Below, piece by piece: positions 1-22,941 of a stretch of 64,000 nt of DNA (position 1 is its first letter; every line of letters begins with the position of its first letter). The stretch spans positions 1 through 64,000 of the forward strand of contig REEV01000074.1 of NCBI GenBank assembly GCA_007694915.1, written 5' to 3'. The notes beneath the pieces are model-generated. The model was given only the letters and a program-made list of their open reading frames with translations, searched no databases and was not told the DNA's origin. Origin of the DNA: Cyanobium sp. PLM2.Bin73. Lineage in GTDB: Bacteria; Cyanobacteriota; Cyanobacteriia; PCC-6307; Cyanobiaceae. The position numbers and the translations under genes are program-made.

Positions 1-84
1 TCGCCAAACAGAACGACCGCGACTCGGCTGCCCGCCCTCTCATTGACATCCCCACCGCTCAAGTTCACCAGCCCGCAGAATCAT

Positions 85-1419
85 TCAATAGAGATACAAG
101 CCTAGATGGTGGCGGGCCTGGTGCATCTTGATGTTGGACAGCCCAGTTGGGATTGTAATCGACGTCTCTGGAAGAAGAGGGATGTGCCGAATGTCAAGCT
201 TCTGCACCCTCTGTCCACGATCTTCGAGCATCACCCTGATGCACATTCTGTACTTGGGGTCCACAAAACTATAGCTATTTGCCTTTCGCGACCTCTTAAT
301 CAAGGAGTTTTCTCTATCAGCTAGTTCGCTTAGGATTCCACTAATATTCAGAGTCTTGCCTGCGGTAGAAGCCGGGAACTCGCGGCGAACAATTGCTTCA
401 ATATCTGAGTAGTTAAAGCTGTCTTTGTGTACTTGCCCTAGCGCGAATAGCACTTGGTTACGCCTACCGGCAACAGTGCTACGGTCATTCATCATCTCTT
501 CTACGGCTGAGTAGGAAGACGACAGGGATGCCTGAAGCCACATTGCCGCAGCAGACTTCAACATGGGCTCAGTAATCACATCGTGATTATCCTCAGCTAT
601 ATAGGCCAATTCAAGACAGAACTCATGGAGCATCTGTGGGACTCCACTAGTTATGAAAAATGCAAACCGGCAGAGATCTTTGGCCATTTCATCATCAAGC
701 CTGCATCCGAGCTCCTTGATAAATCCAGTGTGAATAAAATGAGCCAATTGGGCTGGCGTAAGGGATCCCACTTCTGGAATCTCGTATAGCCTGTTAGTAA
801 CTATAAGCCTGTTCTCGGTTCGAGAGAAATACTCGCGAACTCCTTCAGGCACACCTACGATTAATAGCTTAACTTCGTACTCTGCATATCGAGGGTCATC
901 CAGTAACAATACAATGTCACCAAGCTCTGACATCAGTTTCTTATTTCTGAAGATGGACTCTAAATTGTCGAGCACTAGGCAGCATTTACGCTTTCCTGCC
1001 TGCTGTCTCAAAGATTTGAATGCTCGTTCAAGTCCATCAATCTGCGGAGTCTCGAATTCTCCTTCATGGGTAAGTGCGCCTCTTGCTACCCCAGCATTGA
1101 TCTCTGCCTCTTTGGTCTCCTTGTAGCCAGTCTTGATCGCTCCAGAAAACTCTGCTACAGAGTTCTCAATCTCATTCACTATGCCGCCAAGCCTTGAAGC
1201 ATTACCAAGATTTGCGACTGTCAATACAATTCCGTCATTCTCAAGAATCCTCTTGTATAGCCAAGTCTTCCCACATCCACTCTCACCATGAACGAGTATG
1301 TGTTGAGACCCGTCAATAGCACGTCTAAGACTTCGTTCAAGATTCGGCCTCTCAATATACATTTCAGGATTAACCGTTGGATTGCGAGGCGTGAATACTT
1401 CGTTTGGCTTCTTATTCAT
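85..1419 (-). CDS. P-loop ATPase of the AAA/STAND kind, function unknown
   Basis: A 444-residue protein with a clear Walker A motif GESGCGKT at residues 45-52 and a hydrophobic Walker B strand CCLVLDNLES at about 146-155. A later stretch (LLIVGVPEGV) looks like a sensor strand, and the C-terminal third looks helical, as in winged-helix tails of Cdc6- or TniB-like ATPases. I cannot assign a specific family. The gene is noticeably AT-richer than the genes from 20 kb onward, which suggests transfer. It has the same orientation as the NRPS operon but is separated from it by about 530 bases without a gene, so it is probably a separate unit. It could belong to a defence, transposition or regulatory system whose partners lie to the left of the window. 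Confidence 0.6.
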   Translation of the reverse strand: MNKKPNEVFTPRNPTVNPEMYIERPNLERSLRRAIDGSQHILVHGESGCGKTWLYKRILENDGIVLTVANLGNASRLGGIVNEIENSVAEFSGAIKTGYKETKEAEINAGVARGALTHEGEFETPQIDGLERAFKSLRQQAGKRKCCLVLDNLESIFRNKKLMSELGDIVLLLDDPRYAEYEVKLLIVGVPEGVREYFSRTENRLIVTNRLYEIPEVGSLTPAQLAHFIHTGFIKELGCRLDDEMAKDLCRFAFFITSGVPQMLHEFCLELAYIAEDNHDVITEPMLKSAAAMWLQASLSSSYSAVEEMMNDRSTVAGRRNQVLFALGQVHKDSFNYSDIEAIVRREFPASTAGKTLNISGILSELADRENSLIKRSRKANSYSFVDPKYRMCIRVMLEDRGQRVQKLDIRHIPLLPETSITIPTGLSNIKMHQARHHLGLYLY

Positions 1420-1949
1420 TATTGCTTTTTTCTGAAGCGTGGAACATTTGGCGATCTTTAAAGTCTAGCCCTGGCATCCGGGTCTGTCCAACGCTGCCCC
1501 TGAGTGGCAGGCAAGGATCATGGGGTGGATATGCCAATAACCGATGGTGGACTGTCCGCTCGAGGGGCATGTTCGAAGGCATCGCATACACACTCCCAAC
1601 TTATGCGGTACTTGCCTAGTCTGTAATGTCAACCATCAGCCAGAGAGTCACTCGTTCTCAATGGTGCTTGATACGAGTTGTTCTTCTATTTCAAGCAGGC
1701 ATCCCGAGCCACTTGTGAAAGCTGGTTAATAGATCTCCGAACAGCTTCATAATCCATAGTCTATGCTTGGCTGGAGGTCTTTAGTCCTTGGTCCGCCGCT
1801 GACTTCATAGCAGTGAAGTAAGCATGCTTCTGGAGGCCCTAATCTATTATTGACGTCAAGATCATATCAGTGACCACGAAGACGAACTAAGATTGTCTAC
1901 GCTACCCTGCTTTCCACGCAAAGCTTTCGATTCTGCTTGCAGGAAGAGA
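1420..1949. other. Intergenic region with no supported gene
   Basis: About 530 bases of lower-GC sequence between the ATPase gene and the end of the NRPS operon. Only short frames without recognisable motifs occur. One short perfect inverted repeat (ACTTCA, six bases, TGAAGT) lies near 1802-1819, but no T-run follows it, so I do not call it a terminator. The promoter of the ATPase should lie at the left end of this stretch, but I saw no convincing boxes. Confidence 0.4.
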
Positions 1950-2633
1950 CTACATCATTGCTGCATAGCCTAGATAGCTTTCGGGCAGCTTAAGCTCCCA
2001 TAGCTGGCAAGGCTTGTCGGCTTCAAAATAGATCGATGGAGCAGAGAAACCGAGACCGACTGCCTTGGTAGCTGCTTCATATTGACACCACTGTTTCAGA
2101 AATTCATCTGATTGCTTCGGAACAGGGTGATTTTCAATTTGGCTGATTACGATCTCTGGCCAGAGGATAGATGCCATTGATCTCCAATCATTGTGATACT
2201 GCAATCGCTCAACATCAATTCCAACTGGCCTAAAAGGATGTATCGCTAAGGTAATATAGTCCCCTGAATGGCTGATATTAAAAAATGGCCCATATGGGGA
2301 AAATGGCTTTCCATGGGGGCCAATGTTGACAACTACTGAACAGGGGTGCTGGGAGAGCCAGCTGCCAAGAATTGATCTCAACATGATGCGACCAATGCCA
2401 AATCTCTCCTGATCAGCAAGATGATAAAATGATGCCAAACGAATCCTTTCTTCTTGGGTCAGGAATTGCGAAAGCTGCTGATCTGTAAGATTATCTACAA
2501 ATTCGCGTCGGTCTCCAACCAGTATCAGAGGCGGCTGATCAGCATTTAATCCACGCAAGCTGGCAACCAAGCCATTTGCATCAGCAAGAAAGATTGGTTT
2601 GACATGAAAACCACAAAGACTGCTTGTCATCAA
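1950..2633 (-). CDS. Sfp-type 4'-phosphopantetheinyl transferase
   Basis: This enzyme transfers the phosphopantetheine arm of CoA to the conserved serine of carrier proteins, here most likely the three PCP domains encoded upstream. The 227-residue length fits the Sfp/HetI/Gsp family. Visible motifs are FNISHSGD at 118-125, the metal-binding GIDVERL at 138-144 and the WxxxEAxxK helix (W182, E186, K190). In the last motif the usual Lys before Glu is Tyr. The frame opens with TTG at 2633, which overlaps the stop of the methyltransferase gene; an in-frame ATG follows directly at 2630. It is the last gene of the NRPS operon. The gene is AT-richer than the NRPS genes ahead of it. It might also serve other carrier proteins of the cell. 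Confidence 0.9.
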   Translation of the reverse strand: MMTSSLCGFHVKPIFLADANGLVASLRGLNADQPPLILVGDRREFVDNLTDQQLSQFLTQEERIRLASFYHLADQERFGIGRIMLRSILGSWLSQHPCSVVVNIGPHGKPFSPYGPFFNISHSGDYITLAIHPFRPVGIDVERLQYHNDWRSMASILWPEIVISQIENHPVPKQSDEFLKQWCQYEAATKAVGLGFSAPSIYFEADKPCQLWELKLPESYLGYAAMM

Positions 2634-3265
2634 TCCATGCTGCAGCGTTCAAAGCACTGAATGAACACACTGCCTTGATGGTTGGCCATGTAGTTGGTGC
2701 TGGCATAGGCCTCAAAGCGGCGCCGTTCGATCACAACCCTATCGAAATAGGGCTCGAATTGCCATCGAAGGCTGGGCTTAGATGTGAAGCATGGAATCAA
2801 CACACCTCCGACGCGCAGGCATCGCACCAGCTCGGGCACAAACCACTGCCACAACGACACATCATTGTTAACGGCATCTGGCAGAAAAGGATCAAAGAAT
2901 ATACCGTCCAGGCTTTCGGAATCTAGCTGGGGAACTACATCAAAAATATCGCCATGGATGATCTTCAAGCTTGAAGGCAAGGGCTGATGCCGTTCTTCAA
3001 ACAGCTCGATCACCTCCGCATACTTCTCCACGACCTGATGCTGGACTGTGGAAGGCTTGCGAGCGATATGCAGGGCGGAGAGCCCCAATCCCAGGCCGGC
3101 TTCGAGAAAATTGGTGCCATAGCCGCAAAGCAGGTCGGCAGAATCACGCATCAGTTCGGCTTCCCAAGCCTGCATGGCCTGACCCCCATCTACATACAGG
3201 GTTGTTTCGTCTGCGGTCTCGACAAGCTGGATGTCCGCATGCTGGGGCTGGAGAGCTGGTGCCAT
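2630..3265 (-). CDS. Small class I SAM-dependent methyltransferase, GAMT/RMT2-like
   Basis: The 211-residue protein has the Rossmann fold of class I methyltransferases: a glycine-rich motif I (FLEAGLGLGL, residues 53-62), an acidic turn GDIFDV at 105-110 and DGIFFDPF at 120-127. The layout, with DGGQAMQAWE ahead of motif I and DGIFFDPF after it, reminds me of guanidinoacetate and arginine N-methyltransferases; that family link is by eye only. It lies 11 bases after the third NRPS gene and overlaps the phosphopantetheinyl transferase gene, so it probably tailors the peptide, for example by methylating a guanidino, amino or carboxyl group. It is separate from the methyltransferase domain inside the first NRPS. 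A spermidine-synthase-like fold is the main alternative. Confidence 0.7.
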   Translation of the reverse strand: MAPALQPQHADIQLVETADETTLYVDGGQAMQAWEAELMRDSADLLCGYGTNFLEAGLGLGLSALHIARKPSTVQHQVVEKYAEVIELFEERHQPLPSSLKIIHGDIFDVVPQLDSESLDGIFFDPFLPDAVNNDVSLWQWFVPELVRCLRVGGVLIPCFTSKPSLRWQFEPYFDRVVIERRRFEAYASTNYMANHQGSVFIQCFERCSMD

Positions 3266-3276
3266 GAAACGTTGTC

Positions 3277-6200
3277 CTATTGGGGTGGGAGAGAACCCGG
3301 CTTTGGCTGCGCCTGACGCGGGATCGTTGGGATAGGAGGTTGATCACAGCGTTGGGCCGCCGCGATCGCCTTAGCCAGTTCCGCCAGACAAGGGGTTTCA
3401 AATACTTGACGTAATGCTAACTCCACTCCCAGGCGCTGGCGAAGCCGGGAGATCATCTGTACCGCCAAGAGCGAATGGCCCCCCAAGGCAAAGAAGTTGT
3501 CATGGATATCAACCTTGGACACCATCAGCACCTCTCGCCAGATCTGCACCAGGGCCCTTTCCTCGGCATTGCGGGGCGGCTCAGGCATCCTGTTGGCGCT
3601 GGCTTGGCTGGGTTGTACGGCGGGCAGTTGGCGCCGATCCAGCTTGCCGCTGACCGTCTTCGGCAGGGAGCTCAATGGCACGATCTGGGCGGGCACCATG
3701 TAGCCGGGCAGACGTCGACGCAACAAGCCCATCAGCTCCTGCTGGAAATCCGGGGCGTCTGGCCCGGTCGCGACATAGGCCACCAGACGTGGGCCCAGGC
3801 CTTGGTCTTGTAGCACCACCACCGACTCCTTGACACCGGCTTGGGCATTGAGCAGCGTTTCGATCTCGGCCAACTCCACCCGATGGCCGCGGATCTTCAC
3901 CTGGTTATCCCTGCGGCCCACAAACTCCAGCAGTCCGTCCCTGCGGCGTCGAGCGAGATCGCCACTTCGATAGGCCCGGCGAGGTGGGCTTCCCCCTAGA
4001 GGCCGGAAGGGGCTGGCGCTCGATCGCTCTTGGCCCAAGTAACCCAGAGCCACGCTGCTGCCACGCATCTCCAGCTCTCCAACCCCCACACCGGTGATTT
4101 CGGCACCGGTGGGATCCAGCAGGGCAACCGACAGGCCCGGCACGGCTTGGCCTATCGGCAGGGCATGACCCAAAGGTTGGTTGCTGGCTTTGATTTGGTG
4201 TTGGACTGCCAGGCTGCATTCGCTTGGCCCCAGGCCGTTGACCAAGCGGCAGCCTTCTGGAAAGTGATCTTGAAACAACTGGTGGTCATGCCGCAGGGCC
4301 TGCTCACCCCCGAGAACAACCGTGTGAATCGTCTGCAGTGGCTCGGTCGCCAGCTGCTCCATGCGCAGGGCCAGGTGACGAAACAGGCTGGGGGTGGAGT
4401 GATAGATCGTGATGCGCTCGTCGGCCAACCACTTCGGCAGGTCATCGATGCGGCCTCCCCGCCCATCAAACAGACACAGGCAGGCGCCATTGAGCAGGGC
4501 GCCGTACAGATCCATCACCGCCGCATCCACACCCAACGACGCCAGCAGGGACAAACGATCATGGAACTGGATGCCAATCGTGAGGGCGTAGGCCTGGGCG
4601 TGACCCAGCACCTGGCGCTGGGCCTGCATCACACCCTTGGGATGCCCCGTGGAGCCAGAGGTGTAAAGCACGTAAGCCAGCGACTCCGGTGAGACCGCAC
4701 CAGCCTCAGGGGAAAAGGAATAAGGGAGCTGGTCGGGCAACTCCTCCCACACGATCAGCTGCCTGTCCACTGGCATCAAGGCCCTGGCGCGACTGGAAAG
4801 GGCGGCTGAGCACAGCAGCCGTTCAACCTTGGCCTCTTGGAGGATGAAGCGCAGACGTTCATCAGGATCCTCTCCATCGAGGGGGATGTAGGCCAAGCCA
4901 GCCTTGAGGGTGCCAAGCACGGCGGCCACTGCGCTGACCTCATGGTTGAACAACAGGGCGACGGGGGGCCTGGCCCCGTCCAGGCCGTGGGCCAGGCCGT
5001 TCATCGTGGCGGCAACCACGTCGCTGCGGCGCTCCAGTTCGGCGTAACTCCAGCTCTGTGCAGCGTCACAAACCGCTTCTCGTTCAGGGTGCAGGGCCAC
5101 CTGTCGCTGGAAACGCTCGGAGATGGTTCCCTGCTCCCACCCCGCTGCCTGCTTAGCAGAGGCCGTTGCGGTGACGCGAGTCCACCAAGCGGGCAGCGGT
5201 GGGTCTTCGGCCCTGAGGGGCAGGGCCGCCAGACGGGTATCGGCAGTTAGTGCCACGTGCTCCAGTACATCTCCGAGATGGTTGAGCAATCCGGTTGCGG
5301 TCGCGTGGCTGAAGCAATCACTGCGATAGACGAGGGCAAGGGGAATGGCGTTGCCAGCCTCCCCGCTATAGAGGGATAAATCGAAGGGTGCATGCACGTG
5401 CTCCTGGAAGGGGTGCTCGGCTAGGCGCTCATTCACATCGCTCAGGGCGTTGAAGAACGCCCGAAATAGGGGCGTCTGGCCTGGGTCCTGAGATGGTTGC
5501 ACCGCCCTCAGAACCTGCTCGAAAGGCAAGGCTTGATGATCCAAGGCCTGCAAGGTGGCCAGCCGGATTCGCGAGAGTATTTGCTCAAAGCTGGGATTGC
5601 CGCAAAGGTCGCAACGAATCACGACCGTATTGAGAAACAGGCCGATGACCCCTTCCAGCTCCGATCTGGTGCGCCCCGCCACCGGGACGCCGATGCCAAA
5701 ATCACCCTGGCCGCTATAGCGAGCCAGGACTGCGGCCCAGGCGGCCAAAACCAGCATGAACAGCGTGGCCTTGTGCTCCAGGGCGAGTCGACGCAAGGCC
5801 TTGGCCACCGGTGGGGGGAGGAGCAGGGCCTGCTGGCTGCCCTTACTGCTGGCAACGACTGGCCGGACTTGATCCACCGGCAGATCCAGATGGGGAAGAT
5901 CGGCCAGCTGGCGCTGCCAAAAGCCGGCCTGCTCACGGGCCTGATCGCTGGCCAGCCAGCGCTGCTGCCAGCGGATGTAATCGCTGTACTGCAACACGGG
6001 TGGGGGCAGAGATGGGCCCTTCCCCAGCAGGGCCTCGATGCTGGCCTCCAGTTCTGACAACAGCACCTGCAGCGACCAACCGTCAGCGATCAGGTGATGA
6101 ATGCTGAGCAGGAGCAACTGTTGTTCCTGCCCCAGCCACACCAAGGCAGCATTGAGCAGCGGAGCAGTGGAAAGGTCAAACCCCTTGGTGGCCTGCTCGG

Positions 6201-6705
6201 CGCAGGCGTTCACCAGCGCGAGCTGACGTTGGCTGGCGCTGTGCTGGCGCAGATCCACAATGGCGAGGGGTACCTGCAGCCTTGGTGCCACCACCTGCAC
6301 CAGGTCTCCTTCGCTGATGTCAGCGGGGGAGCTCATGTCCGCGCTGCCGTCAGCCCCGCTGGCCAGCCGAAAACTGGTGCGCAGACTTTCGTGGCGGCTG
6401 ACCATGGCATTGAGGGCCTGCTCAACCAGATGGGGCTCAACTGTTGGTGTCAGGCTCAGACGTACTGGGATGGTGTAGTCAGCGGAGGAGTCCGCCAGTT
6501 GTTGCAGCAGCCAGAGGCGCCGCTGGGCAAAGGATGTGGGTAGGGCCTGCTGCAGTGGAGTGTCGCGGTGCTCCAGCCTGTAGGCGTCGGCAGGGTCGGC
6601 ACCAGTCTCACCCCGCAGGCGACGTTCCAGCAGCTCCCGCTTGGCTGCGGACAGCGCCTGACGACGTTGGTTGAGCTGGCGATCCTCTGCCGATCCCATG
6701 CTCAA
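3277..6705 (-). CDS. Nonribosomal peptide synthetase, module 3 (C-A-PCP)
   Basis: This 1142-residue protein adds the third residue of the predicted peptide. A helical N-terminal stretch of about 50 residues comes first. A condensation domain follows with the LCL-like motif SFAQRRLWLL (from about residue 58) and the catalytic HHLIADGWS near 206. The adenylation domain has YTSGSTGHPKG near 680 and TVSGKLDRRQLP at its end. The carrier domain has DNFFALGGHSL with its serine near 1075. A4 and A5 are unusual (VDAAVMDLYG; GPSE instead of GPTE). Aligned by eye to GrsA, the specificity code reads DAMHVGGLA plus Lys, which I cannot match to a substrate. The chain ends after the PCP with no thioesterase or reductase. 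The start is TTG at 6705, overlapping the previous stop; ATG at 6699 is an alternative. Confidence 0.93.
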   Translation of the reverse strand: MSMGSAEDRQLNQRRQALSAAKRELLERRLRGETGADPADAYRLEHRDTPLQQALPTSFAQRRLWLLQQLADSSADYTIPVRLSLTPTVEPHLVEQALNAMVSRHESLRTSFRLASGADGSADMSSPADISEGDLVQVVAPRLQVPLAIVDLRQHSASQRQLALVNACAEQATKGFDLSTAPLLNAALVWLGQEQQLLLLSIHHLIADGWSLQVLLSELEASIEALLGKGPSLPPPVLQYSDYIRWQQRWLASDQAREQAGFWQRQLADLPHLDLPVDQVRPVVASSKGSQQALLLPPPVAKALRRLALEHKATLFMLVLAAWAAVLARYSGQGDFGIGVPVAGRTRSELEGVIGLFLNTVVIRCDLCGNPSFEQILSRIRLATLQALDHQALPFEQVLRAVQPSQDPGQTPLFRAFFNALSDVNERLAEHPFQEHVHAPFDLSLYSGEAGNAIPLALVYRSDCFSHATATGLLNHLGDVLEHVALTADTRLAALPLRAEDPPLPAWWTRVTATASAKQAAGWEQGTISERFQRQVALHPEREAVCDAAQSWSYAELERRSDVVAATMNGLAHGLDGARPPVALLFNHEVSAVAAVLGTLKAGLAYIPLDGEDPDERLRFILQEAKVERLLCSAALSSRARALMPVDRQLIVWEELPDQLPYSFSPEAGAVSPESLAYVLYTSGSTGHPKGVMQAQRQVLGHAQAYALTIGIQFHDRLSLLASLGVDAAVMDLYGALLNGACLCLFDGRGGRIDDLPKWLADERITIYHSTPSLFRHLALRMEQLATEPLQTIHTVVLGGEQALRHDHQLFQDHFPEGCRLVNGLGPSECSLAVQHQIKASNQPLGHALPIGQAVPGLSVALLDPTGAEITGVGVGELEMRGSSVALGYLGQERSSASPFRPLGGSPPRRAYRSGDLARRRRDGLLEFVGRRDNQVKIRGHRVELAEIETLLNAQAGVKESVVVLQDQGLGPRLVAYVATGPDAPDFQQELMGLLRRRLPGYMVPAQIVPLSSLPKTVSGKLDRRQLPAVQPSQASANRMPEPPRNAEERALVQIWREVLMVSKVDIHDNFFALGGHSLLAVQMISRLRQRLGVELALRQVFETPCLAELAKAIAAAQRCDQPPIPTIPRQAQPKPGSLPPQ

Positions 6706-9700
6706 CTGGCGCCCTCAAAGGGCCCGTCTTCCAGGCTTTCCACTTGGGAGAGCACGAGATCTTCCACAATCGGCCCCAAGGAGGCGATGGTTGGGGCTTC
6801 GAAGGTGGCCTGGATCGGCAAGGAGACCTGGAAGGAATCGCGGATGCGGGAAACCAACTGGGCCACTTTCAGGGAATGACCGCCCAGCTCAAAGAAGTTG
6901 TCCCGCCTGCCCACTTGGCTGACGCCCAGCAGCTCGCCCCAGATCGTGGCCAGTCGCTGCTCCATTGGGGTTTGGGGTTGATCGGAAAGTGCTGAGGAGG
7001 CCTTGTTCGTTTGATGCTTGGGCAGGGCGCCCAGTTCCACTTTGCCGTTGGCGGTGAGTGGCAGGCGCTCCAACCAGACCAATTGGCTTGGCACCATGTA
7101 GCTGGGGAGTTGGGTCTGGAGATGGCGCATCAAGCGGGCGTCATCAGCCTGGTCCCCATCCCCCACCAGATAGGCCACCAGGCGCTCATTGCCGACGGAG
7201 TCGATGTCAACCAGCACCACCGCCTGGGCCACGCCGGCTTGGCGGGTCAAGGCCTGCTCCACCTCGCTGGGCTCGATGCGGAAGCCCCGCAGTTTCACCT
7301 GTTGATCCAACCTGCCCAGGAACTCGATGCTGCCGTCCGCTAGAAAGCGCCCCCGATCGCCGCTGCGATAGACACGCCCGGTGTGGAGACCGGTTGGTGT
7401 CGAGATTTGGTCAATGAAATGCCGGCTGTCCAGGTCGGCGCGGTTGAGATAACCCAAACTCACACCGTCCCCTCCCAGCACAATCTCCCCAGGGGCACCG
7501 ATCGGAAGCGGTTGCAGGTCAGCGTTGAGCACGTAGGCGGTGCTGTTGGCGATAGGCCTGCCGATGGGCAGGCGTTGGTCAGGAGCCACCCTGCTGATGA
7601 CCTGAACTGTGGCGAAGGTTGTGGTTTCGGTGGGGCCGTAGCAATGCAGAAGTTGCTTTGGGGCAGCGCTGCTGAGCACCTTGCTCACACAGCTTGGGTT
7701 GGAGGCTGAACCTCCGAAGAGCAGATAGCGCAGCGTGCCGAAGGCCGCAGGTTGTTCAGACGCCATCAGATTGAACAGGGCTGTGGTGAGGAACATCACC
7801 GTGAGACGCTGATGGGCGATGAACCGGGCCAGGGCGGCCGGATCCAGGCTGACTGGCTTGGGCACGACCACCAACGCGGCGCCATTCAGCAGGGCGCCCC
7901 AGATTTCAAAGGTGGCCGCATCGAAGGCAGGTGAGGAGATGAAGGCCAGGCGATCGTCGGCTTGTATCTGGATGTAATTGGTATGAAGCACCAGCCGTGC
8001 TACGGCCCGATGGGGAATCTTGACACCCTTCGGCCGGCCGGTAGATCCGGAGGTGTACATCACGTAGGCCAGGCTTTCTCCAGGGGATGCCTGCATCTGG
8101 GTTGCGGGCCTGCCGTTCGTAGCGATGCCATGTCCGCTGGACAGCGGAGGCACCTGCGAGGTGACATCCCAGCGCAGCAGGGTGGCTTCTGGCGGCAGGG
8201 CGCTGGCCTCGAAATGCTGGTCGGCAATCACCAGGGCAATCGCGGCGTCGCTGAGGATCTGGCCTTGGTGGGCAGCCGGTGCCTCTGGATCGAGGGGGAC
8301 GTAGGCCGCACCAACGTTGATGATGGCCAGGCAGCTCACCACCAGGGCGCTGGAGCGTGGTAGAGCAAGGCCCACCAGGCAGCCCGGCCCGGCGCCGTTG
8401 CTGCGCAGATGGGCGGCCAGTTGTTCAGCACGTTGGGCCAGTTGCTCGTAGGTGAGCCTGGTCTCCCCCTCAATGAGCGCGATTGCCGCCGGGCGAAGCA
8501 GTTGTTGCTGCTTGAACAGCTGCCATAGGGATTGATCCCGGGGATAGGGTTTGCTTGTGGCGTTCCAATCACCCCACTGCAGATGCAAGTCTTCCCTACT
8601 GGGTTCCAACAGGTCGCCCAGGCTGGCATCGGGGTGGACGGTGAATGCCTCAAGAATGGTGGCGAGCTGTGACAAGAGCCTGTCCAGCATTGCGATTTCA
8701 TATCGCGAGGGATCAGCCATCAGGCGCAAGGTCAGCCGTTCCCCTGGCAACACCATCAGGCTGAGGGGGTAGCTTGCGCGCGAGTGAGAAGCCGCGTGGC
8801 TGACTCGCCACTGACCCTGCATCGATGCCTCTCGCCTCCGCCTGGCACTGGAGTGGGAAGGAAAGTTCTCGAAGGCGATGACACTTTCGAACAAGGGTTG
8901 GTCGCTGCCCAGTTCACTCCAGCCCCGCAGTTGCAGCAACGGCGTGTAGGAGTACTGCTGCAATTCTGTCTGACGCCAGAGCAGGTCTTGTAACCAAGGC
9001 AGCAGGGCCATATCACGGTGAACCAGCACCCGCACGGGTAAGGTGTTAATGAACAAACCCACCGTGGCCATGACCCCGGACAGCTCGGGGGGACGGCCGG
9101 AGATCACACCACCAAAAAGTACATCATCTTGAGCGGAGTGCACTGACAACAGCAGCGCCCAGGCCCCCTGCACCAAGGTATTGAGGGTGAGGCGGTGCAG
9201 CTTCACCATGGCCTCTAGGGCGTCACTGGTCTCCCGTGAGAGCTCGTGAACCCTTGAGAGGCCATCAATCTGAGGCCCGGACTGGCCTGCCATGGCCCCC
9301 TGCCAGGGCAGGCTTGTGGGGCAGCGCAGACCCTTGAGTTCCTCTCGCCACAGCTGCTCTGCCGCCTTTAAATCCTGTCCCTGCAGCCAGGCGATGTAGT
9401 CGCGGTAGGGGACTACCGGGGGCAGCTGGGGATCAACCCCCATCGCATGAGCACCATAAAGATCAAACAGGTCGTTGAGTAACGTCTGAGTACTCCAGCC
9501 GTCGAGAAGCAGGTGGTGATGGCTGAAGCTAAAGCGGGTGCTTGTCTCGCTAAGCAGATAAAGGCCAACCCGCAGCAGGGGTGCGCGGGACAAGTCGAAA
9601 TCGCGGCGGTCGCTCCGCTCTAGTGCCAAGACCTGTTCCTGTTGGCTCAAGGGGTCTAACCCGCGCAGATCATGCACCTCAAAGGGAAGCTCAACATTGG

Positions 9701-9938
9701 CTCTGACCACCTGCAGGGGGTCGGCCAAGTCTTCCCAAACAAAGCCCGTGCGCAGCACTGCATGGCGTTGTATCAGGTCTTGCCAGGCCCGCCGAAAAGC
9801 CTCCACATCGACGTCGCCATGGATCACGTAAGAGGCTTGCTCCACGTAAATCCCTTGCCCAGGTTGCCCTAGGGCATGGAAGAGAAGGCCTTGTTGGAGC
9901 GGGGAGAGCGGATAGATGTCCTCGATGGCGACGCTCAT
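6702..9938 (-). CDS. Nonribosomal peptide synthetase, module 2 (DCL-type C-A-PCP)
   Basis: This 1078-residue protein follows the first NRPS with an ATGA overlap. Its condensation domain starts at once with IYPLSPLQQGLLFH and has HHHLLLDGW near residue 142. This opening resembles condensation domains that accept a D-configured donor, such as that of TycB1, and fits the epimerisation domain at the end of the upstream protein. The adenylation domain has YTSGSTGRPKG near 629 and the A4 core FDAATFEIW. The code read by eye against GrsA is DAFFLGCTF plus Lys, close to codes for branched aliphatic residues (Ile or Val); this is a weak prediction. The carrier domain has NFFELGGHSLKV with its serine near 1020. 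There is no tailoring domain. Confidence 0.94.
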   Translation of the reverse strand: MSVAIEDIYPLSPLQQGLLFHALGQPGQGIYVEQASYVIHGDVDVEAFRRAWQDLIQRHAVLRTGFVWEDLADPLQVVRANVELPFEVHDLRGLDPLSQQEQVLALERSDRRDFDLSRAPLLRVGLYLLSETSTRFSFSHHHLLLDGWSTQTLLNDLFDLYGAHAMGVDPQLPPVVPYRDYIAWLQGQDLKAAEQLWREELKGLRCPTSLPWQGAMAGQSGPQIDGLSRVHELSRETSDALEAMVKLHRLTLNTLVQGAWALLLSVHSAQDDVLFGGVISGRPPELSGVMATVGLFINTLPVRVLVHRDMALLPWLQDLLWRQTELQQYSYTPLLQLRGWSELGSDQPLFESVIAFENFPSHSSARRRREASMQGQWRVSHAASHSRASYPLSLMVLPGERLTLRLMADPSRYEIAMLDRLLSQLATILEAFTVHPDASLGDLLEPSREDLHLQWGDWNATSKPYPRDQSLWQLFKQQQLLRPAAIALIEGETRLTYEQLAQRAEQLAAHLRSNGAGPGCLVGLALPRSSALVVSCLAIINVGAAYVPLDPEAPAAHQGQILSDAAIALVIADQHFEASALPPEATLLRWDVTSQVPPLSSGHGIATNGRPATQMQASPGESLAYVMYTSGSTGRPKGVKIPHRAVARLVLHTNYIQIQADDRLAFISSPAFDAATFEIWGALLNGAALVVVPKPVSLDPAALARFIAHQRLTVMFLTTALFNLMASEQPAAFGTLRYLLFGGSASNPSCVSKVLSSAAPKQLLHCYGPTETTTFATVQVISRVAPDQRLPIGRPIANSTAYVLNADLQPLPIGAPGEIVLGGDGVSLGYLNRADLDSRHFIDQISTPTGLHTGRVYRSGDRGRFLADGSIEFLGRLDQQVKLRGFRIEPSEVEQALTRQAGVAQAVVLVDIDSVGNERLVAYLVGDGDQADDARLMRHLQTQLPSYMVPSQLVWLERLPLTANGKVELGALPKHQTNKASSALSDQPQTPMEQRLATIWGELLGVSQVGRRDNFFELGGHSLKVAQLVSRIRDSFQVSLPIQATFEAPTIASLGPIVEDLVLSQVESLEDGPFEGAS

Positions 9939-12900
9939 GACCGGGGATGCTCGGGTTGGTTGAGTTTCTGCACAAGCAGGTCGAGTTGCTTTTGATTCAG
10001 TCCAGCCAGGGGAAAATCAGCTGAATCGTAGGTTTCTGGTGTCGTTGCGGGGCCACCAGTGGAGTCATCCAGCAGGCGTTTTAAAGCGGCAACAAAGTGA
10101 TCAGCCAGCTGGGTGATCGAGTCCCGCCTATGGATCTGATTCCCATAGCTGAATGACACCTCCAGGCAGCCCTCCACCACCGCTCCATTCACTTCCAAGA
10201 CATGGCTGCGTGGTTGCTCTGGCGAGCGGTTAGGCCCTGATCCATGGCGGTAGATCGTCCAGGGACTGGCTTCAGACAGGGAGCGGTCCAGCTGACCCAT
10301 ATAGTTGAACATCACCTGGGGTTGGGGCATGGAACTCAAGGATTTTGCTCTCTCGCCATCCCCCCCGTAGCGCAACAGGCCATAGCCGATCCCTTTGCGG
10401 GGCACTCGCTTGAGCTGGTCCCGCACACCCTTGAGGGCAGTGGCAGGCGCATGACGGGGATCGGCCGTCAGCCAAACTGGATACATGGAGGTGAACCAGC
10501 CCACCGTGCGGGAAAGGTCAACGTCATCGAAGAGGGGCTCTCGGCCATGGCCCTCCAGGTCAAGCAGCAACCCCGGCTGGCCACTCCATTGCATGTAGGC
10601 CAGGGTCATGGCGGTGAGGAGCACGTCGTTGATGCCGGTGTGATGTCTCCTGGGCAGATCCCGCAGCAGCCGATCCGTGTCCTGCCGGTTCAGATCGCTC
10701 CATACACGCTGGGCCGAGCCTTCATCATTGGGGCCTTGGGGTGCATCCAGGGGAACTGGAGCCCTGTCTTTCACCACCGATAACCAGTAATCCAGCTCTT
10801 GCTGCAGGCTGTCTGAACCTGCGAAGTCCATCAGGCGCTTGGCCCAGCTGGCAAAAGTCGTGGATTTGGCTGGTAATCGCACCGAATTCCCCCCCCGCAG
10901 TTGGCTGATGGCAGTGGCGAGATCGTCCAGCAACACCCGCCATGACACCCCATCCACCACGAGATGGTGGACCACCAATAGCAGCAACTGGGGAGCCCCA
11001 TCCCCACGCTGGAACAGCACAAAGCGGATCACGGGCCCATGGCGGAGATCGAGGCTGACCTGGGCTTGACTGCAGCTGTGTTCGATAGCTTCATCCCAGC
11101 TGGAGCGTGGTGTTTGGCTCAGGTCCACTTCTGTGAAGGGCACGTTGCCATCGAAATCCACCAGGGTTTGCTGGGTGGTGTCTGCTCTGCTGGGATCCGG
11201 CCCAAAGCGCAACCGCAGTCCATCGTGGTGGCGCAGCAGCTGTGCCAATGCTGTCTTTAGCTCTGACACATTGAGGGGTTGACGCAGGCAAAGGAACATC
11301 GCCTGGTTGTTGTGATGGGGCGAGGGCAGTCGCTGCTCGAAGAACCACTGCTGAATCGGGGTTAGTGGCACCGGTCCAGCCGTGGGTTCCGGCTCTGGTT
11401 GAGGCTGCGCCTGGGCTTCATTGGCCGCAACGCACGCCAGTTGGGCGATGGTCTGATGTTGAAACAACTGGCGAGGGGTGAGATGCAGGCCGGCCTGCTG
11501 GGCCCTGGCCATCACCTGGATCGTCAGGATCGAATCCCCCCCAAGATCGAAGAAATTGTCATGCACCCCCACGCGGGCCAGACCCAGCAGCTCGCTCCAG
11601 ATGGTAGCCAAACTGGCTTCCAGCGCTGAGCGAGGCGCTGTGTAGGTACTCTCCACACCTGGGCGTGAAGATTCGGGGGCAGGCAGGGCCTGGCGATCGA
11701 GTTTGCCCGCCGTTGTCCTTGGTAAACGTGGCAGCACCAGAAACGCCCCTGGCAGCATGTAGTCCGGTAGACGGTCCTTCACCCATTTCCGCAACTGCGG
11801 TACCAGGCGGCGAGCGAAAAAGCCTTGATGGGGATCATTGGCGTAGGGTGTCCCATCCCAGTCGCTGTTGCTGGCTACTGTGGCTATGGGTTGGCTGAAG
11901 ATGATGCCAGTCTGGGCGTTCAACCCCTGACGACAGATCTGGACATCGAAACACCCCGGCTGATCAGACCAGGTGATGGAGACGCTGTAGGGGTAGCGCT
12001 TCGACAGGTCCCAGAGATCTTCCGGTTCGAGGCCCTCTGCGGGGGCGATGAGACGCTCGCGCCGCTGTTGTAGGCTGGTTGGATCAGCATTGGGACACTC
12101 CAAAAACTCCAGCAAATCAACCACCCCCTGCAAGCGTCGGTTGGGCACGGCGTGGAGGAACAAGGCTTGTGTTTCCTGCAGTCCCAGTTGCTCCTCCAGC
12201 CATTGCAGGGTGAGGCCTTCTTGCCGCCAATCCAGGGGCCGCAGTGTGATCACCACGCCATCCGGTGCGGCCTCCGGTAAGCGATGAAGGCTTACGTCAT
12301 AGCGGAAGCGGGTGAGCTCATTGTGATGACGTCCCCGCTTCAGGGCGATGTCCACTGACCCGGCCTGGGGCAGGGTTGCAGCCAAGCTCTCAAAAAAGGC
12401 CGGATCCAACACCAACTCCATCTCTTGCTGGACCCGTTGGCGGGCCCTCTCGGCGATCAGGCGGGCACTGTCCTCCGCCGCGGCGCGATGCAACTCCACA
12501 GAGGCATAGAGGGCCGTTTGCAGCTGACGGTGGCGCACATCTCCGATGACAAGCGTGCCACCGGGCGCCAGCATGGACCAGGCTCCCCTCAGAACTCGCT
12601 CCAAGTAATGAACATCAGGAAAGTACTGAACTACGGAATTGATCAGCACCAGATCAAAGCCACCCTCTGCCAAATCACTGAAGTCGTGCGCCGCTTGTTG
12701 CCGTAACCGGACGTGGCTGAGGGTTTGGTCGCTTGCAATCGCCTGGCGCAGGCTTTCAAGGGCTATCGCCGAGATATCGGTACCGGTGTAAGACTCACAG
12801 CTGGGGGCCAAGGGGAACAACAACAGGCCGGTGCCACAGCCGATCTCCAGTGCCCGCTTGGCCCCCAGGGACTGCAGCCTTGCCACCATGCCGTCGACCT

Positions 12901-15847
12901 GCTCACGCATGGCATCCGCCGACAGGGGCTCGCCGGAGTAGGTGCTGTCCCAGCCGATGGTATTGAAGGTCAAATCAGCGTGGGGTGCTGGTTGGCTGTA
13001 GATCTCGTCGTAGAGCGCGCGCCAATGATCGAGCTGCTCATAGCTCCAGCCTTTGCTTTTGGCGTTGGCGCTGGAGAGGTGGGCCACCACATAGGCCACC
13101 AGTCGGCGTTCCCCCAATGGATCGGTCCGCATGACGGCTGCCGCCTCCGCCACCGCCGGGTGGCGCAGCAGCAGCCCCTCAATCTCGGCTGGTTCGATCC
13201 GAAAGCCCCTTAGCTTCAGTTGGTCGTCGCTGCGGCCCAACAGCTCAATCGCCCCGCTGGCTAAACGGCGGGCACGATCACCGGTGCGCAAAACCCGTTG
13301 ACCTGGGCGCCAACGGTCGGGCTCAAACACGGCGGCACTCTTCTGCGCACTGGCACCCCGATAGCCGCGGGCCAGGGCCATGCCCCCGATTAAGAGGTCA
13401 CCCACCACCCCCAAGGGGGTTGGGTTGCCGCGACTGTCGACCACATCGGCGTAGCAGTTGGCCAGGGGGTAGCCCACCGGCAGCTCAGCCTGGGGATGGC
13501 GCCAGCAGGGATCCGCGGGCACGGGCTGAACCAGGCAGGTGATGGTGGTCTCGCTGAGGCCATAGGCATGCAGCAAAGCAGGCTGGGACCCAATTTTTTC
13601 AAGCCAGAGGCTCACATCACTTGGGGTGGCCCGTTCGCTGCCAATGACGACAAGGCGAAGGCTCTTGGGCAGGGGCAGGTTGCCGTCAGGCAGCTGGTTG
13701 ATCCACTCATGCCAATAGGGCGTTGGCAAGTTGAGCACGGTGATGTTCTGGTGCTCCACCAACTCCAGCAATTGGGCTGGTGTGAGTGGGCCCTGCTGTG
13801 GGCGTAACACCACCGTGGCGCCGGCTGCCCAGGTGGGAAAGATTTCCTCTAGGGCCACATCAAAGCCCAGGGTTGCGAATTGCAGCACCCGATCGGAGGG
13901 TTTGAGTCCCAGCTGCTCGGCCATCGCCAAGTTGTGATTGACCAGGGCGCGATGGCTAATCTCCACGCCCTTGGGCTGGCCGGTGGAGCCTGAAGTGTGA
14001 ATCACATAGGCAAGATCTTCGGGGGTTGCGCTGTTGCGCTTGAGGTCGGACGGGCCATCGCCATAGGCATCATCCAGGAACAGGGTGTGGACGCCAAGGT
14101 CCGGAAGCCTGTCGTATAAATGGCTGCGGCTGAGTATCAGTCCAGGCGTGCATATCCGCAACAATTGGTCTTGTCGTGCCAGGGGGTAGGCCGGATCAAT
14201 CGGGGCGAAGGCCCCGCCCGCCTTGCCAATGGCGAGAAGGGCAACCAGGGTTTCGACGCAGGGCTCGGCATGCACCGCCACCACCACGTCGGGCCCTACC
14301 CTCAGAGCTTGCAATGTGAGGGCCAGCCGAGCGGCCAACTGATCCACCTCTTGATAGCTCAGACAACGCTCGCCATCCACCAGGGCGATGTGCCCAGGGT
14401 TCCGTTCGACCTGCTGCTCAAACAGGTTGTGGACACAGTCTTCGGTTGGCCTGGTACTGGTTCTGTTCCAGTTCCATAGCAGGTCATGGCGTTGCTGGCT
14501 GGAGAGAATGGGCAGGTCTTGAATACGCTGTTCTGGGTTGGCTACGATGGCCTCCAAGAGATGCCCATAGGCCTCCAGCATGCGCTGGGCGGTGGCCTGG
14601 TCAAACAGATCACTGCTGTATTCCAGGTGGCCCTCCAGCCCGGCCGCCCCTTCGCGCATATCGAGAGCGAGATCGAAGTTGGCCATGGCTCGCTCGATCT
14701 CCATGGTCGGGCGACCGGCCTGCGTCAGTTTAGTTGGCCGCAAGCCGGGCACATTTTGCAGCTGGAACATCACCTCGAAGAGGGGATTTCTACCCAGGTC
14801 CCGTTCTGGTTGCAGGCTGTCAACAAGCTGTTCAAAGGGCAGCTCCTGGTGGGCGTAGGCCTCAAGGGCCATCTCTCGAACCCGCTGCAGGGCCTCCAGG
14901 AAGCTGGGATTTCCAGTCAGGTCGGTGCGCAGCACAAGTGTATTGACGAAGAAGCCAATCAGCCCCTCCAGTTCCTGCCGGTCTCTTCCGGCGATTGGTG
15001 TGCCGACCACAAGATCCTCTTGCCCACTAAAGCGGGCCAACAACACGTTGAATGCAGTGAACAGGGTCATGAAGGGGGTGACCCCTTGCTCTTGGCTCAA
15101 TTGCTTCAGCGTCTGCCACAGGGATTCAGGCAAGGCGATGGAGCAGGTGGCGCCGCGATAGCTGGAGAGTTCCGGTCTGGGGCGATCGCTTGGCAGCCGC
15201 AATTTGGGCAGTTCGACCAGCTTGTCTCGCCAGTAGCTGATTAACCCATCCAGCAGTGGAGGATTCAGTCGTTGGCGCTGCCAGACGGCGTAATCGATGT
15301 ATTGAACTGGCAGCGGCAGCAGGGGGGACGGCCTTGCGTCACAGTAGGCGCTGTAGAGAGCAGTGAGCTCACGGGAATACACTCCCATGGACCAACCATC
15401 TGTGATGATATGATGCATGGTGCTGAACAGAATCGAGGCATCGTCACTTAGCTGAACGATGCGCACCCTCAGCAAAGGACCTTTGCTGAGGACGAAGGCA
15501 CGACGGGTTTCTGCGTTGGCGATGGCCAAGGCTGTCTGATCACGCTCCGCTTCGTCCTCATCTCGAAGGTCGTTGTATGGCAAAGGAACCACCAACGTTG
15601 CCGCCACCACTTGGTAGGGCTCATCGGCATCCATGTGGAATGTTGTCCGCAATGATTCATGGCGCTCGATGATGGTGGCCAGGCTGCGTTCCAGAGCTGG
15701 ACGGTTAAGGGCTCCACCAATGTGCAGCGCCACGGTCAAGTTGTATAGGGCCGTATTCGGGACGAGGCGATCGAGAAACCACAGCCGTTGCTGTCCGAAC
15801 GAGAGGGGTTGGCCTGGCACGGGAAAGGGCGCTATGGATCGAAGCAT
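9935..15847 (-). CDS. Nonribosomal peptide synthetase, module 1 (C-A-MT-PCP-E)
   Basis: The first gene of the operon, 1970 residues. The condensation domain begins almost at the N-terminus (PLSFGQQRLWFL at 14-25) with HHIITDGWS at 145-153. The adenylation domain has HTSGSTGQPKG near 615 and the A4 core FDVALEEIF; the code read by eye is DVENVGAIT plus Lys, without a clear match. A methyltransferase is inserted between A8 (LRGFRIEPAEIE, about 882) and A9 (about 1362), with its SAM-binding EIGCGTG near 1002, the usual place of N-methyltransferases. The carrier domain has NFFDLGGDSI near 1437, the GGDS form typical before epimerisation domains. The rest is an epimerisation domain with HHLVVDGVSW near 1629 and GYGLLRY later. 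The product should carry an N-methyl D-residue. A condensation domain in the first module suggests an acyl or aminoacyl starter from elsewhere. Confidence 0.95.
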   Translation of the reverse strand: MLRSIAPFPVPGQPLSFGQQRLWFLDRLVPNTALYNLTVALHIGGALNRPALERSLATIIERHESLRTTFHMDADEPYQVVAATLVVPLPYNDLRDEDEAERDQTALAIANAETRRAFVLSKGPLLRVRIVQLSDDASILFSTMHHIITDGWSMGVYSRELTALYSAYCDARPSPLLPLPVQYIDYAVWQRQRLNPPLLDGLISYWRDKLVELPKLRLPSDRPRPELSSYRGATCSIALPESLWQTLKQLSQEQGVTPFMTLFTAFNVLLARFSGQEDLVVGTPIAGRDRQELEGLIGFFVNTLVLRTDLTGNPSFLEALQRVREMALEAYAHQELPFEQLVDSLQPERDLGRNPLFEVMFQLQNVPGLRPTKLTQAGRPTMEIERAMANFDLALDMREGAAGLEGHLEYSSDLFDQATAQRMLEAYGHLLEAIVANPEQRIQDLPILSSQQRHDLLWNWNRTSTRPTEDCVHNLFEQQVERNPGHIALVDGERCLSYQEVDQLAARLALTLQALRVGPDVVVAVHAEPCVETLVALLAIGKAGGAFAPIDPAYPLARQDQLLRICTPGLILSRSHLYDRLPDLGVHTLFLDDAYGDGPSDLKRNSATPEDLAYVIHTSGSTGQPKGVEISHRALVNHNLAMAEQLGLKPSDRVLQFATLGFDVALEEIFPTWAAGATVVLRPQQGPLTPAQLLELVEHQNITVLNLPTPYWHEWINQLPDGNLPLPKSLRLVVIGSERATPSDVSLWLEKIGSQPALLHAYGLSETTITCLVQPVPADPCWRHPQAELPVGYPLANCYADVVDSRGNPTPLGVVGDLLIGGMALARGYRGASAQKSAAVFEPDRWRPGQRVLRTGDRARRLASGAIELLGRSDDQLKLRGFRIEPAEIEGLLLRHPAVAEAAAVMRTDPLGERRLVAYVVAHLSSANAKSKGWSYEQLDHWRALYDEIYSQPAPHADLTFNTIGWDSTYSGEPLSADAMREQVDGMVARLQSLGAKRALEIGCGTGLLLFPLAPSCESYTGTDISAIALESLRQAIASDQTLSHVRLRQQAAHDFSDLAEGGFDLVLINSVVQYFPDVHYLERVLRGAWSMLAPGGTLVIGDVRHRQLQTALYASVELHRAAAEDSARLIAERARQRVQQEMELVLDPAFFESLAATLPQAGSVDIALKRGRHHNELTRFRYDVSLHRLPEAAPDGVVITLRPLDWRQEGLTLQWLEEQLGLQETQALFLHAVPNRRLQGVVDLLEFLECPNADPTSLQQRRERLIAPAEGLEPEDLWDLSKRYPYSVSITWSDQPGCFDVQICRQGLNAQTGIIFSQPIATVASNSDWDGTPYANDPHQGFFARRLVPQLRKWVKDRLPDYMLPGAFLVLPRLPRTTAGKLDRQALPAPESSRPGVESTYTAPRSALEASLATIWSELLGLARVGVHDNFFDLGGDSILTIQVMARAQQAGLHLTPRQLFQHQTIAQLACVAANEAQAQPQPEPEPTAGPVPLTPIQQWFFEQRLPSPHHNNQAMFLCLRQPLNVSELKTALAQLLRHHDGLRLRFGPDPSRADTTQQTLVDFDGNVPFTEVDLSQTPRSSWDEAIEHSCSQAQVSLDLRHGPVIRFVLFQRGDGAPQLLLLVVHHLVVDGVSWRVLLDDLATAISQLRGGNSVRLPAKSTTFASWAKRLMDFAGSDSLQQELDYWLSVVKDRAPVPLDAPQGPNDEGSAQRVWSDLNRQDTDRLLRDLPRRHHTGINDVLLTAMTLAYMQWSGQPGLLLDLEGHGREPLFDDVDLSRTVGWFTSMYPVWLTADPRHAPATALKGVRDQLKRVPRKGIGYGLLRYGGDGERAKSLSSMPQPQVMFNYMGQLDRSLSEASPWTIYRHGSGPNRSPEQPRSHVLEVNGAVVEGCLEVSFSYGNQIHRRDSITQLADHFVAALKRLLDDSTGGPATTPETYDSADFPLAGLNQKQLDLLVQKLNQPEHPRS
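15182..15189. repeat. HIP1 octamer GCGATCGC
   Basis: The palindrome GCGATCGC is over-represented in many cyanobacterial genomes. Further copies occur in this window, for example at 3362-3369, inside the recombinase gene near 17486 and inside genes of the nitrate block. It supports a cyanobacterial origin. One copy is marked here because it lies inside an NRPS gene that might otherwise be thought foreign. Confidence 0.6.
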
Positions 15848-16370
15848 CTATTGTATTGAATAGCGTCATTGAAAGTTCTATAATTCTTAACATATCAAGA
15901 GCACACTGCAATGCCGCCTGTTCCGCGACAAGCCCCATGGCCGATCAGTGCAAGCAGGTAATCAATCCCACTCTAGGAGCGTGTCGCACGACGCGCCCAG
16001 GCCAGATCCAAGTTGCAACTGATAGCCGCTAAGGCTAAGCTATGCATTGTACGCTTGAAATGATTTGTATCCTATCCGCCCAACGATTATGGATAGATCG
16101 TGCGCAGCCACGATCTTATCCGAAGTTGAACAAGCCCGCAATTCCGGGGCCCTTGCTCTACTGCAGAAACATCCGGCCGTTTTTCACAGTGGCTTTAGAT
16201 TCTCCATCAGTAGAAATACCCGATCCATGGGCCACTGGATCTGTGCTGTCCTCTGCGGTGCGATTATAGGGCCGCAACCATCCTGAGCGGCCGGTTCGCT
16301 TCATTTAACCCGGCCTGGCTTGGGGCGCAAGGCTATCTCTAGGTTTATTCTCCCCTCGATTCTCACCCGC
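15848..16370. other. Region upstream of the NRPS operon; no supported gene
   Basis: About 520 bases of lower-GC sequence between the start of the first NRPS gene and the end of the transposase gene. It should hold the NRPS promoter (minus strand) and the oriIS-like end of the IS91-type element. No NRPS-like remnant is visible, which argues against a lost upstream module. A plus-strand promoter-like pair, TTGAAT at 15856-15861 and TATAAT at 15879-15884 with 17 bases between, points away from the NRPS genes and may be chance. Short plus-strand frames near 16042-16286 have no recognisable motifs. Confidence 0.35.
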
Positions 16371-17429
16371 TCAGCAGAGCAGCGGCGTCATCGCCTGCAC
16401 CCGCACGGCCAGGATGCTCATCAGCCCTCCGCACTGGGGGCAGAGCAGTGGCGGCTTTCGGCGCGGCACCGATGGTGCTGGCCGCACCACCCTCAACAGC
16501 AGTTGCAGGAGCTCGATCCGTCGCCTGGCGTTGCCATGCAGCAGGCCATAGTCCCGCACCCGCCGGAAGCGTTTGGGCAGCACATGACGCAGCAGCAACC
16601 ACAGAAAATCGGCGCCAGAGACGGTTTGAATCACCTCCTTGCCGGCGTTGTCCTGTGTGCGGAAGGTCACCATGCCATCCGCATCAGCGAGGATGTTCTT
16701 CTCGCTGATAACACCGCGATACAAATAGCGGCCCAGGTAGACCAGCGCCTTGCTGCCCCCTCCCACAGACTTGCAGTGCACCACCCACTCTGTTGGCAGG
16801 GTCCCTTGTGCCTGCAAGCCCAGCAGCCGCATGCCCTCGAACCATTTGGCCCGAAACACCCTGGCCAGGTTGGCTGCTGGAAACAGGTAGCCCTTGGCCT
16901 TGCTGCGCCACTCCCGCCTGTGTCCATCAAGCGCCCCGGCAGGAACGATCAGATGCACGTGGGGATGGTAGTCAAGGCGCCTGCTGTGGGTGTGCAGAAC
17001 TGCATGGGCTCCGATCTGCCCCCTGAGCTTTGGATCACGGCGCGCAAATGAATCGAGCGTCTGCCATGCCGTTTTCAGCAACAGATCATAGGCTCGCCGT
17101 TGCTGCAGCCAGAACAGCGCCCTCAGCTCGGCGGGCACCGTGAAGGTGATCAGGAAATACTCCACCGGCAGCAGCTTGGCTTGCTGCCGCTCAATCCATC
17201 GCTGGCTTTCATGATGCTGGCAGTGGGGGCAACTGCGATGGCCGCAGGAATGGGGGATCTTGAGGCTGTGCTCACAATCGGAACACTGCAGCACCATCAG
17301 GTCGCCGCCCTGACGCCGGCAGCGCCGCAGCGCCAGTAGGGCCTGGCGATGGCTCGGCAGCAGCTGATGGCCATGGCGCCGTTCCAGCTCGCCCTGGTAG
17401 CGCTCCACCAGTTGGGAGAGAAGAATCAT
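16371..17429 (-). CDS. IS91-family HUH (Y2) transposase
   Basis: A 352-residue rolling-circle transposase if it starts at the ATG at 17429. A longer open frame exists upstream, but it runs through the recombinase gene. An N-terminal zinc-binding region has C49, C52, C62, C67 and C70. The metal-binding HUH-type motif HPHVHLI is at 155-161, and the two-tyrosine motif YLGRYLYR is at 231-238. A CPQCGG zinc knuckle lies near the C-terminus. The ATG overlaps the stop of the tyrosine recombinase gene (ATGA at 17426-17429), so the two are probably translated together as one mobile unit. The length is near that of IS91-type transposases, and no frameshift is visible, so the element may be active. I could not fix the oriIS and terIS ends by eye. 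Confidence 0.88.
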   Translation of the reverse strand: MILLSQLVERYQGELERRHGHQLLPSHRQALLALRRCRRQGGDLMVLQCSDCEHSLKIPHSCGHRSCPHCQHHESQRWIERQQAKLLPVEYFLITFTVPAELRALFWLQQRRAYDLLLKTAWQTLDSFARRDPKLRGQIGAHAVLHTHSRRLDYHPHVHLIVPAGALDGHRREWRSKAKGYLFPAANLARVFRAKWFEGMRLLGLQAQGTLPTEWVVHCKSVGGGSKALVYLGRYLYRGVISEKNILADADGMVTFRTQDNAGKEVIQTVSGADFLWLLLRHVLPKRFRRVRDYGLLHGNARRRIELLQLLLRVVRPAPSVPRRKPPLLCPQCGGLMSILAVRVQAMTPLLC

Positions 17430-18340: not shown

Positions 18341-18658
18341 GGCGGTAGCTTCCCGTTGGGAAGACGAAGGGACTCAGCGCATCAGCAGATGCGCATCCCT
18401 CAGTGTCTTGCCGAAGTGCCGCTGTGGTCAGCAGCGAGCAGAAACGGTTCAGCCTTTATCTACAGCATCGGGCCTGCGGCATCCACTCAAAGCCAACGCG
18501 TCATGAAGCAGAGCAGCTCCGCTATGCTATCTCTGTGAATCTGCCGCGCAGCGGCTTAGTTCAACGCTCCAGATCAGAAGCGGGCAGAGATTTGAGGATA
18601 GAAAAAAGTCTCTGCTCCCGTCTTCTGTATCTGGATGTTAGCCTTCGCCTCAATCAGA
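18341..18658. other. Spacer between recombinase and hicB, with stem-loop at 18377-18394
   Basis: About 320 bases without a supported gene. It contains the perfect inverted repeat GCGCATC, four bases, GATGCGC at 18377-18394, some 37 bases upstream of the recombinase start. This could be an operator or part of the terminus of the IS91-type element. Another GC-rich imperfect hairpin, GCCGC-tgc-GCGGC on the minus strand, lies near 18543-18555. No transposon end could be defined. Confidence 0.35.
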
Positions 18659-20454: not shown

Positions 20455-20562
20455 CGATGGGACGGCCGTACAGGTTCAGGATTCCCCGCCCGGCCGGTGA
20501 TCCGCGTCCCCAACCAGGCCGCTGCCCCTCCTTTACTGGAAACCACCCCGGGAGCAGTTGCC

Positions 20563-22839: not shown

Positions 22840-22941
22840 GCCCCCGCACCGCATCGTCGTGCCCAGGCGGATGCCGGCAGGCCTGGCCGGCGGCTCCGTC
22901 GTTTGTCCGTAACCTCAAGGACCCGTCACCCGCCGCCGCCC

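Follow-up and report, generated by a model that had tools for sequence, protein, structure and literature searches.

Can an integron hold a complete NRPS operon as a single gene cassette? The question is raised by a locus of Cyanobium sp. PLM2.Bin73 (assembly GCA_007694915.1), of which a stretch of 64,000 nt was analysed (contig REEV01000074.1, positions 1–64,000); this whole stretch is called the window below. An integron is a gene-capture system, and its cassettes usually hold one short gene. On the minus strand of the window (1950–15847) three NRPS genes, a small methyltransferase (MT) gene and a PPTase gene follow one another with overlaps or a gap of 11 bp. An earlier note had given these coordinates and this compact five-gene layout, and both proved correct when compared with the ORFs and the Pfam matches. 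The operon is real and, as far as tested, an orphan, as had been held. Its integron-cassette position is the surprising and stronger part of the analysis, and lies outside the coordinates with which that note dealt. All features are listed in Table 1.

Table 1. Features of the locus, in window coordinates.
Feature	Position	Strand	Description and basis
NRPS1	9935–15847	-	1970 aa; C1 (L-type), A1, inserted N-methyltransferase, PCP1, E; Pfam, TIGR01720, codes, C tree, motifs
NRPS2	6702–9938	-	C2 (D-donor type), A2, PCP2; Pfam, codes, C tree
NRPS3	3277–6705	-	C3 (L-type), A3, PCP3, short tail, no TE; Pfam, codes, C tree
Small SAM methyltransferase	2630–3265	-	GAMT-related, Methyltransf_30-type; Pfam, PDB search; conserved in L015
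4'-Phosphopantetheinyl transferase	1950–2633	-	ATG is second codon; GC 0.45; missing after MT in L015
Block in common with L015	2643–15895	-	13.25 kb, 91% DNA identity, abrupt edges on both sides
intI	19483–20454	-	TIGR02249, 465.8 bits against a cut-off of 265; frame intact
Candidate attI (tentative)	19298–19331	-	Core GTTAGCC; 97% identical over 32 bp to a stretch downstream of an intI fragment in G009
Cassette 1	18659–19119	-	hicA (18868–19119) and hicB (18659–18871), toxin-antitoxin; Pfam, ORFs
attC of cassette 1	18555–18649	-	85.9 bits, model R3
Cassette 2 genes	16371–18340	-	Xer-like tyrosine recombinase (17426–18340); IS91-family Y2 transposase (16371–17660)
attC of cassette 2, short	16078–16131	-	54-bp GTTCAAC...GTTGGGC hairpin with bulged base; sister-genome cassette homology ends at its GTT
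Cassette 3 (putative)	1492–16083	-	About 14.6 kb; five genes (NRPS1–3, MT, PPTase) between two attC sites
attC of cassette 3	1482–1583	-	31.2 bits, E 8e-7; 367 bp beyond PPTase stop
Cassette 4	85–1419	-	AAA ATPase
attC of cassette 4	46–145	-	39.7 bits, E 2e-9

Pfam gave the architecture C-A-MT-PCP-E, C-A-PCP and C-A-PCP for the three synthetases. In NRPS1 the second of the PF00668 matches represents the E domain, which is also backed by a match to TIGR01720; C1, C2, C3 and E are the only C-type domains in the whole genome. The HHxxxDG motif was present in all four of them, and the PCP linked to E carries LGGDS. The E-domain motifs EGHGRE, GWFT..YP, GIGYG and FNYMGQ were found, as were a SAM motif (EIGCGTG) and an N-MT motif (NSVVQYFP) in the methyltransferase of NRPS1. 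None of the operon genes contains a stop or a frameshift. The operon has the C, A and PCP domains, with catalytic motifs, of a modular NRPS, and the inserted N-MT and E domain with their motifs, followed by a D-type C domain, of an N-methyl-D module. The description of module 1 as carrying both an inserted methyltransferase and an E domain was borne out in this way, and a check of the key motifs of these two domains revealed no loss.

A tree was made of 480 C/E domains taken from fetched loci. C2 fell inside a D-donor clade of 116 members; of the 55 C domains that come after an E domain, 54 belong to this clade. C1 and C3 grouped with the L-type domains, those directly following a PCP. The placement of C2 agrees with the DCL-like character that had been proposed for it and supports a D-configured donor to module 2; together with the motifs, it also supports the prediction that module 1 makes an N-methyl-D residue. 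The residue itself, as predicted in the earlier note, is thus supported; its place at the start of the peptide is less certain, since C1 is an intact L-type domain with no donor upstream in the locus. A starter-type C1 was not supported, given this L-type grouping; the C domains nearest to C1 include two that follow PKS modules.

The pocket codes of the A domains were read against GrsA, of which the fragment was identical to 1AMU over the part used. The codes were DVENVGAITK (A1), DAFFLGCTFK (A2) and DAMHVGGLAK (A3). In the cyanopeptolin synthetase (oci), DAFFLGVTFK is the code for Ile/Val and DVENAGVVTK occurs at the Ahp position (PMC2533009). A2 is one residue apart from the former and A1 begins with the same four letters (DVEN) as the latter, but oci is a seven-module depsipeptide pathway and the clusters are not homologous. 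For A3 no counterpart was found in the code comparison, and the papers searched for the three codes contained related codes only. An acidic residue in the A1 pocket leads us to guess that the substrate of A1 may be basic. A TE domain, the usual terminal release domain, is absent from NRPS3 (Pfam), and elsewhere in the genome PF00975 gave only weak, partial matches.

In a PDB search the small MT matched guanidinoacetate N-methyltransferase (GAMT) with an E value of 4e-7. Its residues E35 and D125 align with E45 and D134 of GAMT, which we take to be the guanidine-binding residues. The two enzymes have the similarity in SAM fold and both of these residues in common, whereas the small MT is bacterial, NRPS-linked and of low overall identity to GAMT. 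Because of the similarity and the two conserved residues, it is plausible that the small MT methylates a guanidine group. An AlphaFold model of the MT (mean pLDDT 35.8) was not used. The P0004 match in genome G042 was discarded as a generic methyltransferase, away from any NRPS. The PPTase (1950–2633) has a Tyr at the Lys of the Sfp W..KE...K motif (WCQYEAATKA), and a second PPTase gene is present elsewhere in the genome.

The predicted assembly would run as follows. The PPTases would arm the three PCPs, and A1 would load the first residue, possibly a basic one, which would be N-methylated by the inserted methyltransferase and then epimerised by E. The D-type C2 would couple it to an aliphatic (Val/Ile-like) residue and C3 would append a third. 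A guanidine nitrogen may be the target of the GAMT-like enzyme. The most likely task of C1 is to attach a starter, acyl or amino-acyl, that comes from outside the locus, and release would occur by a trans thioesterase or by hydrolysis. The peptide is uncharacterised, and the N-methyl-D residue and the GAMT-like methyltransferase would make an unusual pair.

Within the window the array reads, in order, intI, candidate attI, hicAB, a recombinase/IS91-like unit, NRPS-MT-PPTase, AAA ATPase and contig end, with an attC after each cassette. The contig stops there, as the window begins at its base 1, 1.95 kb from the end of the operon. Pairs of hicA and hicB occur commonly as cassettes of chromosomal integrons. 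The first 65 residues of the AAA ATPase match the candidate phage-defence model PDC-S59. Beside intI lie two long ORFs (20533–22854 and 23460–24734) that matched nothing in Pfam, NCBIfam or PADLOC, and the other side of the integron holds urease alpha together with ABC transporter genes for nitrate and urea (29315–55320). A type I secretion permease/ATPase and an HlyD-like adaptor were found at 58944–63049.

The attC sites were recognised as follows. A 79-bp hairpin repeat (18563–18641) recurs in sister genomes. A first model (R1) was built from eight hairpin copies, including the window copy at 18555–18649 but neither 1482–1583 nor 46–145; it found the latter two as further sites in the window, and dozens in the genus. 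Sites gathered with R1 were used for a covariance model (R3) of 42 attCs of sister genomes, from which all window sequence was excluded. R3, with the full stem, superseded a model of 7 pairs made by RNAalifold (R2). In the 42 aligned sites the stem letters are conserved, 91.9% of the cells are paired against 32–42% in slid versions, and many paired changes occur at three central pairs, so that the covariation is clear. R3 found exactly three sites in the window (18555–18649, 46–145 and 1482–1583), all on the minus strand; in 430 kb of control NRPS loci it had no match with an E value up to 5. Scanning loosely for RYYYAAC/GTTRRRY produced many chance matches in Markov controls, and for this reason only the model-based sites and one site verified by comparison were used.

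The latter, at 16078–16131, was accepted as the fourth attC through comparison of cassette ends with three sister genomes (G006, G009 and G011), which contain homologues of cassette 2. The homology starts at 18565, in the R' core of the first attC, and ends at 16071–16082, in the R' core of the hairpin; the letters after the GTT differ per genome. Because these limits coincide with R' cores, the ends of cassette 2 look like true cassette ends. The hairpin as an IS91 element end was set aside, since the homology in all three genomes stops at the GTT and the letters after it vary, yet it remains compatible with an element end imitating an attC. If it is not an attC, the interval would be about 17 kb and would also hold the recombinase/IS91-like unit.

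Both the integrase gene and the array of attC sites in one orientation, which characterise an integron, are present. The operon has the form of a gene cassette, a coding unit followed by its own attC (1482–1583, after the PPTase gene), with the attC at 16078–16131 before NRPS1. The genes overlap or nearly touch, which leaves little space for an attC inside the operon. A unit with R' ends that is shared between different arrays was seen for cassette 2; for cassette 3, no other array yielded a second copy.

IntI scored above the curated cut-off in 9 of the 13 genomes of the genus, and at least 55 attC matches were found, in 9/13 genomes. The genome to which the window belongs has a second intact integron integrase (G000:C49:3303-4238) and another attC (G000:C125:3805-3900), each on another contig. 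In the other genomes of the genus neighbouring attC sites are 0.6 to 9.8 kb apart, several pairs being 5–10 kb apart, so that more multi-gene cassettes may exist. The interval of 14.6 kb is extreme, yet large gaps occur elsewhere, and undetected sites may lie inside the larger ones.

Judged from these features, the functional-looking orphan NRPS operon, with its five genes, probably forms a single very large cassette of about 14.6 kb within the chromosomal integron of a small cyanobacterium, a reading in which we have moderate confidence. IntI would then excise and integrate it by folding of the bottom strand of attC, as for ordinary cassettes. The further step, that the integron captures and carries the complete operon as a single mobile cassette and that integrons can move whole natural-product pathways, is more tentative, and we hold it at somewhat less than even confidence.

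The relatives of the operon bear directly on this. The only close relative in a contig set of 84,980 species was a Lake Pavin MAG contig (L015, JAPLIC010000079.1). It has NRPS1–3 and MT in the same order, at 91% DNA identity, and the same A-domain pockets, with residues identical at nine core positions. Unlike the window, L015 contains no PPTase and no attC, and its flanks hold other mobile genes. Directly on either side of the 13.25-kb block nothing similar was found between the window and L015. The conserved unit ends at MT, because L015 has no PPTase there, and the PPTase was accordingly ruled out as a member of the conserved set. The operon had been called self-contained except for release; this was too generous, as initiation is unexplained as well and the PPTase lies outside the conserved block (absent in L015; GC 0.45 vs 0.61). 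MoaA of the L015 genome is only 64% identical, which, against 91% for the block, suggests horizontal transfer of the NRPS-MT block, provided that the L015 contig was binned correctly. In L015 the flank at 1–9357 contains ORFs for an IS630-type transposase and for excisionase-like, GNAT, Fic and PIN-like proteins; the mobile surroundings of the NRPS block differ between L015 and the window.

No ortholog of NRPS1 was found in the 13 genomes of the genus and no comparable match in 251 genomes of the family; only 2 of the 13 contain NRPS genes. Viral contigs yielded no relative, and plasmids only a 49-bp NRPS match. The nearest public relatives outside L015 are about 33–50% identical per domain. 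A single gene with C-A-nMT-PCP-E occurs in Aphanothece sp. CMT-3BRIN-NPC111, so this module type is not unique to the window, but it is about 38–50% identical per domain, has another pocket code and belongs to a larger multi-gene NRPS system. In a sister genome a different NRPS cluster (G009:C7:27595-40185; 35–40% identity) has a PPTase homologue directly alongside; the same contig holds intI at 1502–2434 and no attC by model R3.

The edges of the block (15895 and 2643) do not coincide with attC sites, and in L015, which shares only the inner block of cassette 3, the four genes sit outside any recognised integron. GC content is 0.453 in the PPTase gene, 0.464 in the spacer between PPTase and attC and 0.464 in the AAA cassette, against 0.612 in the NRPS-MT block. 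Given the position of the edges and the difference in GC, a small PPTase cassette may have received the block. The integron anatomy would then be real, but the 13.25-kb block would have been inserted into a cassette of ~1.3 kb through the IS91-like element or illegitimate recombination, and would never have moved as a cassette. In keeping with this, the block in L015 is exactly NRPS1–3 and MT, with neither PPTase nor attC, and the end of the Y2 transposase gene lies about 0.5 kb upstream. However, the MT stop overlaps the PPTase start in the manner of a natural operon, no target duplication came to light at the block edges, and IntI could still move the enlarged cassette. We regard this course of events as a serious possibility, though on balance a rather doubtful one.

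The operon might also be a decaying remnant that makes nothing, having lost the donor module ahead of C1 and the release domain that followed PCP3. NRPS3 indeed has no TE and its tail resembles a PCP-C linker, and C1 is without an upstream donor. Yet L015 keeps the same TE-less layout of four genes, and dN/dS against L015 is 0.09 for MT and 0.20, 0.21 and 0.23 for the NRPS genes, so that purifying selection maintains all four, the TE-less end included. With reading frames and motifs intact as well, decay appears quite unlikely. Slightly less credible still is an ordinary horizontally acquired island beside the integron with chance or decayed, non-functional attC calls next to it: mobile genes abound nearby and the weakest site (1482–1583, 31 bits) folds as DNA no more stably than shuffles (z -0.85), but its bulges sit at family positions, the three matches to an independent model lie on one strand, all at cassette ends, with none other in the window or the 430 kb of controls, and the ends of cassette 2 were verified across genomes.

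Integrons were already known in cyanobacteria (PMC2426708, PMC8618304). Their cassettes generally contain one ORF, sometimes none or two (PMC8618304), a content which cassette 3, with five genes in about 14.6 kb, does not match. In the part of the literature covered by our search, no report was found of an NRPS or biosynthetic gene cluster as an integron cassette. A survey pipeline allowed at most 4,000 nt between attC sites, and the median gene length in its integron gene catalogue was 402 nt (PMC7370490); a limit of this kind excludes large cassettes from the outset. Should the NRPS operon be a movable cassette, integrons would offer a route by which whole biosynthetic pathways spread in small-genome cyanobacteria, and this class of cassette would have escaped surveys that allow no more than 4 kb from one attC to the next. 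Among the closest known systems are the chromosomal integrons of the Treponema type, in which the integrase is co-oriented with the cassettes and whose intI clade includes a Synechococcus (PMC3607928). The integron of the window resembles these in its intI, its attC family, its cassettes running in one direction away from intI and its toxin-antitoxin cassette; it differs in that one cassette would span about 14.6 kb and hold an NRPS operon of five genes.
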